From assembly GCA_031291635.1 (NCBI GenBank), contig JARLIR010000253.1, positions 1 through 38,830 of the forward strand: a stretch of 38,830 bases of DNA, given 5' to 3'. How positions within the stretch are numbered: position 1 is the first letter of the stretch; each line of letters opens with the position of its first letter. The notes below the pieces were generated by a model, which saw only the letters and a list, made by a program, of their open reading frames with translations, was not told the DNA's origin and did no database searches. The position numbers and the translations under genes were made by a program. This document shows, piece by piece, positions 14,286 to 27,218 of the stretch. The DNA comes from Rhizomicrobium sp. GTDB lineage: Bacteria > Pseudomonadota > Alphaproteobacteria > Micropepsales > Micropepsaceae.

Positions 14286-15059
14286 ATGAGTTTGGTGGTT
14301 GATTCAGTTGCCAAGAATTTCGAGCGCTTCCCCGCCCTGAACGGCGTCAGCTTGACGGTGCCGCAAGGCGCCTTCCTGGCGCTGGTGGGCCCTTCGGGTT
14401 CCGGTAAGACGACGCTGCTGCGCATCTTGGGCGGACTTGAATTTCCCGATTCCGGGACGGTGCGCTTTGCCGATATCAATTGGCTGGAGGTGCCAGCGCG
14501 CCAGCGCCGGGCGGGATTTGTCTTTCAGCAATATGCGCTGTTCAAACATATGACGGTGGAGAAGAACATCGCCTTTGGCTTGACGGTGCGCCCACGGCAC
14601 GAGCGGCCTGCCAAGAAGGAAATCCACCGTCGCGTGGAAGAGCTTTTGGCGCTGGTGCAGCTCGAAGGCTTGGGCAAGCGTTATCCCAATCAACTCTCCG
14701 GCGGTCAGCGCCAGCGCGTGGCGCTGGCCCGGGCGCTCGCCATCGAGCCGCGTATGCTGCTGCTGGACGAGCCTTTCGGGGCGCTTGATGCAAAAGTGCG
14801 CAAGGAATTGCGTGTCTGGTTACGGGCGTTGCATGAGAAGATGGGCATCACCACGGTGTTCGTGACCCATGATCAGGAAGAAGCCTTTGCCTTGGCGGAT
14901 CTGGTGGCGATTATGAATAAGGGCCGCATCGAACAATACGGCACGCCCGCCGACGTGCGCCGCTCACCCAAGACGCCCTTTGTCGCCGAGTTCCTGGAAA
15001 CCGGTCCGCAGCGCAATGGGCTACTGCCGCCCCATGCTGTCGGCAGTCATCCGGCTTGA
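14286..15059 (+). CDS. cysA: Sulfate ABC transporter ATP-binding protein
   Basis: Walker [10 protein letters not shown], signature [15 protein letters not shown], Walker [13 protein letters not shown]; follows cysTW. Confidence 0.93.
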
Positions 15060-15547
15060 ACGATCGGCTTGCGGACGATGCCGTAATAGTTTTGCACCGA
15101 GGCGAGCCCCTCTAGAATGTGCGTGAGTTCGGTTTCTGAAATCTCTGCGGCCCCAGGAGCGACCATGCGCATGGCCCGCAAAAATACGCTGACGGGCGCC
15201 ACATCACGAATGCCTTTATCGATCATACCGATCACCAAATCGCAGAAGCGTTTGACGACGGTATCGAGACGGTCGAAGTCGTAGGTGCCGGACAGGGTCA
15301 GAATTTGACTAGCACGGCCCAACATGGCGTCGAGGTCGGACACAGCGATGCTCTGCCCGCCGCTGGCTGCGAGGATGGCCTCGAGTGCGGCGATCTCAGC
15401 GGGAATGGCGGCGACGAATTCCTCGCGCAACCTTTCGACATTCGTGTCGGCCGCCTTCAGCGCGAGCCCCCGTGAGATGCCCCCAGGCTTGCGCAAAAGC
15501 TGTCCCAAGCGATTGGGGACTTCGGTGACGATGCATTTGGAGCCCAT
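15047..15547 (-). CDS. Conserved protein of unknown function, probably helical (CheE-position paralog A)
   Basis: 166 aa; clear paralogy with 19796-20329 (PGG[IV]SR...; LTLSGT[YF]..[DE].LD.VVK[RK]FCDL..GM.DK.I...AP..V.L.AMR.V). Follows a receiver gene with 1-nt overlap. Confidence 0.7.
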
Positions 15548-16080
15548 TACGGTACCGCCGGGGGGTGGGGCAAATCATCGGTTCCGTGATCTGAGGCGCG
15601 CCGGCTGAGCCCGACGGCTGCACTGTTCGCCCAGAAGCGGCGATCTGGCCCCGCAAAGGCATCGGCGTCAATAAAGGGGCGCTCGGTCCGTGCCGCCCAG
15701 AGGATATGATCGAACAAAGTGGCGGGAGAAACCGGTTTGCGCACGACGCTGCTCACGCCCGCATCGCGGGCATGGGTCACGCGAGAAAACTGGGTGTAAC
15801 CGGTCAATACCACCACCGGCATGTAGCGGATCTTCGTGTCGTTACGACGACGGAGCCAGCGCACCAGATCGGCCAAGGACATATCCTGCAGCACGCTCTC
15901 GCAGATCAGAAGGTGGAAGCGCCCGCTGGGAAGGAGCTTCTTGGCTGCCTCGCCGGTGCCGACGATGAAGTGGTTGTTGAGCCCGAAGCCGCGCAGAATC
16001 TGGCTGATAATGCCCGTCGAAAAGCGGTCGTGATCGACCACGAGCGCCATAATCTCCGAGAAGTTGAATTTCTTAGCCAC
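15547..16080 (-). CDS. CheY-like receiver protein (copy A), predicted phospho-acceptor Asp replaced by Glu
   Basis: VAKKFNFSEIMALVVDHDRFSTGIISQILRGFGL...FHLLICESVLQD...YMPVVVLTGYTQFSRV...VVRKPVSP; GTG start at 16080 inferred by alignment to copy B. Confidence 0.82.
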   Translation of the reverse strand: MAKKFNFSEIMALVVDHDRFSTGIISQILRGFGLNNHFIVGTGEAAKKLLPSGRFHLLICESVLQDMSLADLVRWLRRRNDTKIRYMPVVVLTGYTQFSRVTHARDAGVSSVVRKPVSPATLFDHILWAARTERPFIDADAFAGPDRRFWANSAAVGLSRRASDHGTDDLPHPPAVP

Positions 16081-16346
16081 GCCCGTGCAGGCCCGCACAA
16101 ATCGCCATGGTCGAGAATGGGGGTAAACTGTTTAAGTCTTGGTTGCAGCTACGGGCCTGTGTGCAAAACTCGCGATCTTCTGCCGACGCGGAAGGTTTAG
16201 GCCCAAGCCGTTACGGAAGCTTGCAATTCGGATGGTTGTTATGGTCCCTACAATCGCACTAAAATAATGTTGCGCGAGGGTGACAAGCCGCGACGACGCG
16301 CATGATGTGCTATTGCAATTCCATCGCAGCAACAGGAGCCCGCATC

Positions 16347-18622: not shown

Positions 18623-19813
18623 ATGGGACGTTTTATTTTCAAATTACCGGATGTCGGCGAAGGCACGGCGGAAGCCGAAATCGTAGCCTGGCATGTCGCT
18701 GTGGGCGAACATGTGCGCGAGGACCAACTGCTCGTCGATGTGATGACCGACAAAGCGACGGTGGAAATGACCTCGCCCGTGGCTGGAACCGTCGTGGCGC
18801 TCAAGGCCAATCCCGGCGAAATGGCGACCGTGGGCGCCCCGCTGGTGGAATTCGAATTGGAAACGGTGGCGGCCGTCGCAGCATCGCCCGTCGCCGAGAC
18901 GCCTGCCGCGCCCCAAATCGCGACAGCAGCGGTATCGAATGACGTGGCGCCCGGCATTGTGTTGGCCGCGCCTGCCGTGCGCTTGCGCGCCGCCGATCTT
19001 GGGATCGATTTGCATCGCTTGCGCGGCAGCGGACCCGGTGGTCGCGTCACCCATGGCGATCTCGACGATTTTCTCGCCGGCGGCGGCAAATCGGCCCCTC
19101 GCCAAACGCTGCGCGACGGCGTGGAAGAGATCAAGCTGATCGGGCTGCGCCGCAAGATCGCCGAAAAGATGCAGGAAGCGAAAAGGCGGATTCCGCATTT
19201 CGCTTATGTCGAGGAAATCGACATGAGCGAGATGGAAAGCCTGCGCGCCCAACTCAACGAGACGCGGCGCGGCGGTCAGCCCAAACTGACGGTGCTGCCC
19301 TTTATCATGCTGGCGCTGGTGCGCGCCCTGCCCGATTTTCCGCAGATCAACGCTCATTTCGATGATGAGGCGGGCGTGATCAAACGCTTTCAGGCCGTGC
19401 ATATCGGGATTGCCACCCAAACCGATGCTGGCTTGATGGTTCCCGTTGTCCGCCATGCCGAAGCCCTCGATTTGTGGCAAGCCGCGGCTGCAGTCGCAGC
19501 AATGGCGGCCAAAGCCCGCGACGGCAGCGCCAAGCGCGATGAGTTGAGCGGCTCGACCATCACCATCACCAGTCTCGGCGCGCTCGGCGGCATCGCCTCC
19601 ACACCGATTATCAATCATCCGGAAGTGGCGATTATCGGACCCAACGCCATTGTCGAGCGGCCCGTGGTGCGGGCTGGCCAGGTCGCCATTCGCAAGATGA
19701 TGAATCTATCGTCCAGCTTCGATCACCGCGTGGTCGATGGCGGCGATGCAGCGCTCTTCGTCAAGCGCCTAAAGGCGCTGCTGGAACATCCAGCTCTACT
19801 TTTTATTGGCTGA
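18623..19813 (+). CDS. 2-oxoacid dehydrogenase E2 component (dihydrolipoamide acyltransferase)
   Basis: Lipoyl domain (FKLPDVGEGTAEAEIV...DKATVEM), peripheral subunit-binding domain (APAVRLRAADLGIDLHRLRGSGPGGRVTHGDL), catalytic DHRVVDGGD. Confidence 0.94.
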   Translation: MGRFIFKLPDVGEGTAEAEIVAWHVAVGEHVREDQLLVDVMTDKATVEMTSPVAGTVVALKANPGEMATVGAPLVEFELETVAAVAASPVAETPAAPQIATAAVSNDVAPGIVLAAPAVRLRAADLGIDLHRLRGSGPGGRVTHGDLDDFLAGGGKSAPRQTLRDGVEEIKLIGLRRKIAEKMQEAKRRIPHFAYVEEIDMSEMESLRAQLNETRRGGQPKLTVLPFIMLALVRALPDFPQINAHFDDEAGVIKRFQAVHIGIATQTDAGLMVPVVRHAEALDLWQAAAAVAAMAAKARDGSAKRDELSGSTITITSLGALGGIASTPIINHPEVAIIGPNAIVERPVVRAGQVAIRKMMNLSSSFDHRVVDGGDAALFVKRLKALLEHPALLFIG

Positions 19814-20329
19814 GCGCACGGCAACTGGCGGCGCCGGGACGAATTCCGGCGGCTCCGGAACATGGGCATTGATGCCGTAATGGTCGTGAATGCGCGACAA
19901 CTCAGCCAAAATCGCCACAGCATCGTCGTCGCTGAGATCGGCCTTAAAGACGAGACGCATGGCGCTCAAATGCACTTTCAGCGGCGCCGTTGTCGTGATC
20001 GCCTTGTCCTTCATGCCGAAGGTCAGATCGCAGAACTTCTTCACCACCGCGTCGAGCGTTTCCGATCCGAAGGTTCCCGATAGCGTCAGAAGCGGGTCGA
20101 CCTGATCGAGGATTTCGCCCAGCTCAGCATCGCTGATCTGCGGGCCTGCCGAAGCCACAAGTTGTTCGAGCCGGGTGATTTCCACCGGCACCGCCTTCTC
20201 GCACTCTTCCCGCAACTCTTCGATCAAGGTCTGGGCTTCCTGGACCGCTTCTTCGCGACTGACACCACCCGGCATCGACAAGAGCTCGCCCAAGATATTC
20301 TTGACGCGAATGATCTTACACCCGCTCAT
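19796..20329 (-). CDS. Conserved protein of unknown function, probably helical (CheE-position paralog B)
   Basis: 177 aa, last gene of the che cluster; paralogous to 15047-15547; overlaps the upstream receiver gene by 4 nt. Confidence 0.72.
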   Translation of the reverse strand: MSGCKIIRVKNILGELLSMPGGVSREEAVQEAQTLIEELREECEKAVPVEITRLEQLVASAGPQISDAELGEILDQVDPLLTLSGTFGSETLDAVVKKFCDLTFGMKDKAITTTAPLKVHLSAMRLVFKADLSDDDAVAILAELSRIHDHYGINAHVPEPPEFVPAPPVAVRSANKK

Positions 20330-20910
20330 TCGATTTCTACTTTCGTCGGTTTTAGGAGGTTATCGATTTCATCCTGAGACATATTCGGTTCCAGGGCCGC
20401 ACCGATATCGGCAGTCATATCCGTCTTGCGCCGCCCCGCGCCATCCGGCGGGCCGGTATTCTTGAAACGCCGATCCGGCCCGATGAAATTGTCCGTTTCG
20501 ATAAACGGGCGTTCGGTGCGCGCCGACCAGGCGATGTGATCGAACAGCACGTTGGGAGAGACGGGCTTGCGCACGACGATATTGGCACCGGAATCCCGCA
20601 ACGTCACAACATTGGAAAACTGGGTATAGCCGGTCAGCACCACGATCGGCATGTATTTGATGTTCAACGCGGGCTGCCGCCGGATCCATTTGATGAGATC
20701 GCTGGCATGGGTGTCGGGCAGAATAGCATCGCAAATGAGCAGATCGAAATGCCCCGCGCCCAACCGCCGCTTTGCTTCTTCGCCGGATTCAATAACGATC
20801 TGCCGCGATAGCCCGAAGCCGCGCAGAATCTGACCCAGAATCTGGGTCGAATACTGATCCGCGTCGACGACCAGCGCCTCAATTTGCGTAAAATTTAGCC
20901 GTTCGACCAA
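20326..20910 (-). CDS. CheY-like receiver protein (copy B) with C-terminal FliM-N-like peptide
   Basis: IEALVVDADQYSTQILGQILRGFGL...FDLLICDAILPD...YMPIVVLTGYTQFSNV...VVRKPVSP, then tail ...EPNMSQDEIDNLLKPTKVEIE. Start TTG at 20910. Confidence 0.85.
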   Translation of the reverse strand: MVERLNFTQIEALVVDADQYSTQILGQILRGFGLSRQIVIESGEEAKRRLGAGHFDLLICDAILPDTHASDLIKWIRRQPALNIKYMPIVVLTGYTQFSNVVTLRDSGANIVVRKPVSPNVLFDHIAWSARTERPFIETDNFIGPDRRFKNTGPPDGAGRRKTDMTADIGAALEPNMSQDEIDNLLKPTKVEIE

Positions 20911-21308: not shown

Positions 21309-21913
21309 CAAAAGAACTCCACATCCACTGCTGCTGCCGTCTGCGTCTTTTTGTGAAGAGCGGTAAGTTCCTCTTCCACCAGCCGCGGCTCGGCACCCTT
21401 TACAACTGCTTGACGCGCTCGCCCGGACGCCGGTGCAAACTGAATCCGTCGAGCAAGATCACCGCCGACATCTCCACCGACGATGCTAATGCCTTCGTCG
21501 TTAAGAAACTGCCGCGCAAATGCAATATTTCGCGAGCCCACATCCGTCAGCGCGGCCACAACATTGGCCCCGCCAAAGAGTTTGGCCTCGAGCCGGCGAC
21601 GGTCGCCGCCATGTTTGAGAATATCGTTGATCAAAAGCTCCATGGCGTTGATGCCATAGCAGCGTGCCGCCCGGTCACCCGAATTGCCATCCGGCAACAG
21701 AAAGTGATTCATCCCTCCGATACCGGCCGAGGAATCACGAATGCAGGCTGAGATGCAGGAGCCTAATATCGTCGTCAGCACTTCTTCCGGATCCGCGGTG
21801 ACGTAAGTGTCGCCGAGGGTCAGTTGCACATGCACAAGACCATCGCGCGGATTGCGGAATTTCCGCAATGTCCGCTCGTCACTCTGCTTTGGTCTTCTGC
21901 TCGGTATGTTCAC
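21308..21913 (-). CDS. cheD: Chemoreceptor glutamine deamidase CheD
   Basis: LTTILGSCISACIRDSSAGIGGMNHFLLPDG, with the CheD Cys/His motifs; ...YGINAMELLINDILKHGGDRRRLEAKLFGGANV. Confidence 0.93.
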   Translation of the reverse strand: MNIPSRRPKQSDERTLRKFRNPRDGLVHVQLTLGDTYVTADPEEVLTTILGSCISACIRDSSAGIGGMNHFLLPDGNSGDRAARCYGINAMELLINDILKHGGDRRRLEAKLFGGANVVAALTDVGSRNIAFARQFLNDEGISIVGGDVGGDLARRIQFAPASGRARQAVVKGAEPRLVEEELTALHKKTQTAAAVDVEFF

Positions 21914-22299
21914 GAAAGCACACCAAATATCTGTTCGAGTTTCTGTTTCAACACCGCGACGGTGAACGGCTTGACGAGATAGTTGTTGGCGCCGAACTGC
22001 GCCGCACGCTTGACCAGATCGGCATCAGCTCTGCCGGTCAAAAGAATGAACCCCGTCGATTTGATGGTGGGATCGGCCCGCACCGCCCGCAGGAATTCGA
22101 GACCATCCATCTCCGGCATATTGAAATCGGAAAAGATGATGTGCGCCGGCTGCGCCTTCAGGGCTGCCAAAGCTTCTGGCGCTTTGGGAAATTCACGAAT
22201 GTCGGTGAGGCCAATCTGCTGCAAGCAGGAGCGAACCAGCGTGCGCATGGTGAGTTGGTCGTCGACCACGATAGCTTTGATTTTAGAGGGTGACGGCAT
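21910..22299 (-). CDS. cheY: Chemotaxis response regulator CheY
   Basis: [30 protein letters not shown]...[22 protein letters not shown]...FILLTGR...NNYLVKPFT; single receiver domain. Confidence 0.93.
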
Positions 22300-26849: not shown

Positions 26850-27218
26850 CTATGGTGAGACCCGACGGATCGCGGCCAGCAGTTTTTCGGGATCGAACGG
26901 TTTGACGATCCAGCCCGTGGCACCGGCATCACGCGCGCGGGTCTTTTTGGCCGGCTCGCTTTCCGTCGTCAGCACCAGGATCGGCGTCATCTTGTTGGCA
27001 GAGCCGCGGCGCACATGCTCGATGAAGCCGTAGCCGTCCATACGCGGCATATTGATGTCGGTGATGATGACGTCGACGAGCCCGGCATTTTCCAGGACCT
27101 CCACGCCATGCACGCCATCATCAGCCTGAATAACGGTATGTCCCGCGCCACTCAGCGCGAGCCGCAGCATATCGCGCATCGTGCGCGAGTCGTCGACGGT
27201 GAGGATCGTCTTGCCCAT
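26850..27218 (-). CDS. cheY: Chemotaxis response regulator CheY
   Basis: MGKTILTVDDSRTMRDMLRLALSGAGH...VDVIITDINMPRMDGYGFIEHVR...LVLTTES...GWIVKPFDPEKLLA. Confidence 0.95.
   Translation of the reverse strand: MGKTILTVDDSRTMRDMLRLALSGAGHTVIQADDGVHGVEVLENAGLVDVIITDINMPRMDGYGFIEHVRRGSANKMTPILVLTTESEPAKKTRARDAGATGWIVKPFDPEKLLAAIRRVSP

Follow-up and report, generated by a model that had tools for sequence, protein, structure and literature searches.

A conserved FliM-like tail on a predicted CleA orthologue may plug the motor docking site reversibly or act as a decoy for it

The cleA locus and the parts of its product

The window (the whole stretch of DNA analysed, 38,830 nt) contains a che operon in which genes for a STAS-type protein (CheX position), CheYI, CheA, CheW, CheR, CheB, CheYII, CheD and CheU lie upstream of the gene of interest (Table 1). 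This gene sits between cheD/cheU and cheE, in the window and in orthologous loci alike, with CheE encoded downstream. Its product consists of a Response_reg domain (E 4e-15), the only recognizable Pfam domain, and a 68-residue extension, and AF2 models of two orthologues have the CheY fold (fold search, TM to target about 0.88). The C-terminal stretch reads ...EPNMSQDEIDNLLKPTKVEIE, the final 18 residues being MSQDEIDNLLKPTKVEIE. Because the protein has the defining Arg-rich motif of the Cle family, and because the gene position matches that of cleA (CC0440) in Caulobacter, it is on sequence grounds a CleA orthologue, with c-di-GMP binding predicted. Counted from Met1, residues D67, R111, RR153 and R167 of orthologues L212–L220 agree exactly with the published CleA numbering (family scan). 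An earlier note on this DNA had described a receiver with MSQDEIDNLL near its C-terminus, and both the translation of the ORF and the match to FliM bear this out. Its reading of the tail as a FliM-type peptide on a receiver stands as well, but it missed the Arg-rich region of the c-di-GMP type and the CleA identity.

Table 1. Features of the cleA locus and of its product
Feature	Coordinates	Strand	Description
cleA (formerly cheYIII)	20326..20910	-	194 aa, TTG start; receiver, Arg-rich region and FliM-like tail
CleA receiver domain	20533..20874	-	residues 13–126; Pfam, alignment with E. coli CheY, AF2 CheY fold
CleA Arg-rich region (ARR), predicted c-di-GMP-binding type	20419..20487	-	residues 142–164, FIGPDRRFKNTGPPDGAGRRKTD
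CleA linker, ARR to tail motif	20383..20418	-	residues 165–176; little constraint among near relatives; low AF2 confidence
FliM-like putative CheY-docking peptide MSQDEIDNLL	20353..20382	-	residues 177–186
Conserved end KPTKVEIE	20329..20352	-	3' of the motif; family form [KQ]Px[KR][VA]; outside the FliM motif
cheE	19796..20329	-	start overlaps cleA stop; degenerate HPt-type protein
cheYII	21910..22299	-	prime candidate for a partner in trans; D57, T87, Y106, K109, F111, L116 and K119 retained (alignment)
cheYI	26850..27218	-	the cluster's other canonical CheY; W at position 106, A at 119
CleA2, tail-less CleA paralogue	15547..16098	-	paired with second cheE (15047–15547); natural tail-free comparison

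In Caulobacter, CleA (CC0440) is a CheY-like effector whose Arg-rich region binds c-di-GMP, after which the protein docks on FliM (Nesper et al. 2017, PMC5677366). Like CleD, CleA uses the CheY site to dock on the N-terminal peptide of FliM, and in CleD this requires c-di-GMP; phosphorylation is dispensable for the docking, and the alpha4 Arg contributes (PMC5677366). By analogy, c-di-GMP binding, FliM docking and the role of the alpha4 Arg may carry over to the window protein. It shares with the CleA/Cle family of Caulobacter crescentus the succession of a single receiver, an Arg-rich region and a C-terminal region, along with the che-operon position and the alpha4 Arg, but its tail is closer to FliM than Caulobacter-type tails are. 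CleD (CC3100), also a Cle protein, differs in having a much longer C-terminal region (constructs reach residue 269).

The Arg-rich region begins with a complete repeat, FIGPDRR (residues 142–148), which fits the pattern [YF]xGP[DE][RK]R of PMC5677366. The second repeat, NTGPPDGAGRR, is degenerate, like that of other CleA orthologues. R134 precedes the region and D164 follows it, a flanking Asp as in PMC5677366, and the region is kept across CleA orthologues. R105 is the conserved alpha4 Arg of Cle proteins and is invariant in the alignments.

Alignment with E. coli CheY places D61 at the phospho-acceptor position and K115 at K109. D57, T87 and K109 of CheY are retained; the acidic pocket is incomplete, with A at CheY position 13 and V in place of Y106. 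Hence CleA lacks the full residue set of a phosphorylation-switched CheY (D12/D13, D57, T87, aromatic Y106 and K109). Several orthologues (L012, L013, L019 and L020) and the paralogue CleA2 have Glu instead of Asp at the phospho-acceptor position, swaps that appear in line with phosphorylation-independent control. The phosphate-relay role raised in the earlier note thus finds no support, given the incomplete pocket and the Glu residues.

A second CleA–CheE pair lies outside the che operon (15047–16098, minus strand). Its CleA2 is 55% identical to CleA over residues 3–168, and the FliM-like motif was not found in it. CheE, encoded at both sites, is a constant neighbor of CleA and has the look of an HPt protein that has degenerated. 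Among distant alphaproteobacteria, an HPt-like gene with AHDMKGQGGSFG comes after several of the tailed cle genes (L188, L189, L190, L193, L195, L196 and L197). These HPt-like neighbors narrowly miss the Pfam cut-off (Hpt E-values of about 3e-4 to 6e-4) and match CheE with an hhalign probability of 99 (E 1.6e-18). The His is lost in the window CheE.

Likeness of the tail to FliM, and its conservation

The extreme N-terminus of FliM (and of FliY in Gram-positives) carries a conserved LSQxEIDALL-type peptide that binds phospho-CheY. FliM of the same genome reads LNQDEIDSLLGF and has QDEID.LL in common with the CleA tail, and other FliM proteins of the class read LNQ[DE]EID[SN]LLGF. The tail therefore shares the ten-residue FliM pattern (LSQxEIDxLL), but the CleA copy is C-terminal on a receiver protein and begins with M. 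The motif is flanked by GF in FliM, and instead by EPN and KPxKV in CleA. The FliM core domain (PF02154) is absent from CleA by Pfam, and the real FliM of the genome is encoded on another contig (C170). Searching the genome with the pattern SQxE[IV]D gave six DNA matches, against three for a reversed-pattern control; only the CleA tail and FliM, among the six, fall at credible protein positions. We also built a PSSM from 12 FliM motifs of the class plus three further FliM motifs. The window tail, which fits [LM][SN]Qx[ED]ID.LL, scored 27.2, compared with a background maximum of 19.1. A sequence search of the PDB with the 25-residue tail found no match. The open-access papers searched, including the main text of PMC5677366, make no mention of a FliM-like motif in the C-terminal region of CleA, a region that is called variable among Cle proteins (PMC5677366).

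Two further possibilities were considered and set aside. NLSDEEIDNLI in the window CheA was put down to coincidence within the kinase core. For a separate product translated from the internal ATG of the tail, inspection of six orthologues revealed no consistent Shine–Dalgarno sequence upstream. As a side observation, FliM of this genome (L165, G000 contig C170) has a docking-like motif, MGSQAEIDAAF, close to its N-terminus and another, ILNQDEIDSLLGF, some 45 residues on, an arrangement shared by the near relatives G394, G391 and G414.

Conservation in orthologues was a test that the earlier note had set for its claim, and tail-blind queries show that the tail is indeed kept. A first scan of the collection included NMSQDEID among its seeds, which biased the distant matches, and these were excluded from the counts. 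For the unbiased repeat, the query ended at residue 164, before the tail; the proteins from such genome searches, together with L008–L013 and L015–L022, make up the orthologue set. Class-wide, 15 of 113 distinct Rec–ARR proteins have the strict motif near the C-terminus (mean for shuffled tails 0.002). The second tail-blind search covered 119 genomes of the family of G356, probably Caulobacteraceae to judge from one member that matches a Caulobacter sp. record (L018) at 92%. Among 92 Rec–ARR proteins found there, 27 have the strict motif (shuffles 0.00) and 68 the broader form N[ML][SD]Q..I[DN].[LM][LM][KQ]P.[KR][VA] (shuffles 0.10); as the broader form was framed after viewing these sequences, the strict count is the safer one. 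Tails scoring above 99.9% of the PSSM background segments were seen in 44/92 proteins of the family (0.09 expected) and in 16/119 of the class (0.12 expected). Chance or composition as the source of the tail is ruled out by the shuffles and the PSSM background, and at the sequence level the tail is conserved.

Most Cle proteins are without the tail. A quick tree gave about 15 gains or losses, at least five of them forced by well-supported branches, an approximate number in that one tailed row (L133) was labelled tail-less. In all tailed CleA orthologues, the order is receiver, Arg-rich region, tail. Codon differences among close orthologues number 60 synonymous to 29 non-synonymous in the motif, and 60 to 65 in the linker before it.

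What is conserved bears on whether the tail could instead be a structural part of the c-di-GMP site, in which the C-terminal region makes up for the degeneracy of the Arg-rich region and resembles FliM only secondarily. We regard this as unlikely. It would suit the finding that the Arg-rich region of CleA binds no c-di-GMP in isolation but does so with the C-terminal region attached (PMC5677366), and the motif flanks, EPN before and KPxKV after, are kept too. Yet the linker joining the Arg-rich region to the motif is little constrained among near relatives, and what stays is the FliM pattern, at all ten motif positions in the PSSM. Moreover, the tail is also found on distant members of the Cle family whose Arg-rich regions and linkers differ (L049, L054, L058, L095, L101 and L120), with sequences such as LSQSEVESLL, LSQDEVNALL and MSQEEVEALM.

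Less probable still is a role unrelated to FliM or CheY, for instance as a C-terminal degron or as a site for another partner. Such a role could explain why the C-terminal end beyond the motif is conserved, and one genome, G210, might be cited in its favor: it encodes a Cle protein (L058) with a good FliM-like tail, and FliM, FliG, FlhA and CheW were not found in this 98% complete assembly. These missing genes fit a recent loss or an assembly gap, however, and the sister genome G378 has the same tail and all four genes. The ten-position likeness also recurs in many genera, far above the shuffle and PSSM backgrounds.

Candidate receivers for the tail

The tail is probably a receiver-docking peptide of some kind, and we infer that it most likely acts as a FliM-mimic pseudo-ligand for the alpha4–beta5–alpha5 face of a receiver. 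Which receiver it would engage is a matter of weighing the two ideas that remain in the lead, both proposed in the earlier note: a decoy and self-docking.

As a decoy in trans, the CleA tail would bind CheYII~P (perhaps also CheYI~P) and either withhold it from FliM or keep it near the motor, lowering reversals. CheYII retains the canonical FliM-binding residues, Y106, F111 and K119 included. The tail also tracks che linkage: it is present in 46 of 49 CleA proteins adjoining cheD (the exceptions being L231, L240 and L283) versus 22 of 43 others (Fisher p 3e-6, a statistic that treats related sequences as independent and rests on short flanks), and the unlinked paralogue in the window is without it. 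In Caulobacter, CleA promotes smooth swimming, antagonizing CheYII, and its loss leads to hyper-reversal that depends on CheYII (PMC5677366). This epistasis, however, is already accounted for by competition at FliM, and the ID motif of FliM is required for CleA localization. The ID pair, moreover, is weakened in Caulobacter-type tails (LSDDEISNMM and MSQEEINNLM), a deviation that a tethered pseudo-ligand could tolerate whereas a strong free decoy could not. Finally, some tailed Cle proteins come from flagellated genomes that yielded no CheW domain (G153, G021, G044 and G315), although in three of these (G153, G021 and G315), all drafts, the tail matches poorly. CheA-phosphorylated CheY is not expected in such genomes. 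Overall, we consider the decoy possible but somewhat doubtful, and favor the face of CleA itself over CheYII~P sequestration as the target of the tail.

A tail aimed at CleA or another Cle protein, and displaced upon c-di-GMP binding, is our tentative choice. Self-docking seems likelier because Caulobacter CleA itself binds the FliM peptide, in a manner set by c-di-GMP and not by phosphorylation. The weakened ID pairs and the tailed proteins of genomes without a detected CheW domain point the same way, as does the fact that the Arg-rich region adjoins the tail and, in CleA, needs the C-terminal region for c-di-GMP binding. The FliM-binding face of Cle proteins is also conserved: across 89 tailed proteins, R is found at position 99 in all, R119 in 82 and R122 in 88, and V/I 95, A103, P113 and L/M 116 are kept as well.

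We therefore propose, with still more reserve, a c-di-GMP-gated intrasteric switch, in which alphaproteobacterial Cle proteins would plug their own FliM-binding face with a tethered copy of the FliM docking peptide. Without c-di-GMP, the tail would lie on the FliM-binding face of CleA itself and close it, docking either within one molecule (in cis) or between two Cle molecules arranged head-to-tail. Binding of c-di-GMP would fold the Arg-rich region onto the alpha4 arginine beside this face, and the folding would pull the tail off. The freed face could then take the LNQDEIDSLL peptide of FliM. As in intrasteric (pseudo-ligand) autoinhibition, the face would stay covered by a tethered copy of the peptide of its target until ligand binding exposed it; for CleA this is a proposed analogy only. 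We infer the binding of the tail to a receiver, the choice of receiver and the displacement by c-di-GMP from a tail whose anatomy, conservation and similarity to FliM are directly observed. AF2 models of two orthologues contain a short helix at the motif (residues 178–184, pLDDT about 50), the extension being otherwise disordered.

Some observations argue against a plug. Most Cle proteins have no tail and yet reportedly need c-di-GMP, so the tail is not required for gating generally. The face of the window CleA differs from that of CheY at V106, R108, V111 and H119 in the alignment, and AF2 confidence over the tail is low. Analysis of covariation between the tail and its own face gave no signal, the face accounting for 2 of the 25 top-ranked pairs against 23% expected.

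Another way to place both activities in one protein is for the receiver to sit on FliM while the tail offers an extra docking site for CheY or Cle at the C ring. CleA does combine a receiver published to bind the FliM peptide with a peptide like that of FliM, and C-terminal extensions have been suggested to bring partner proteins to the motor (PMC5677366). But CleA lowers reversals, the opposite of what recruited CheYII~P should do, and no sign of oligomers was seen; we think this arrangement improbable.

How c-di-GMP activates the receiver of Cle proteins for motor binding was posed as a question by the authors who described them (PMC5677366). A conserved FliM mimic beside the c-di-GMP site offers a concrete, testable mechanism for c-di-GMP-driven motor binding; these data suggest that CleA carries in its tail either a plug for the motor docking site that can be removed or a decoy. 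If this is true, CleA would be a response regulator that bears the peptide of its own output target.
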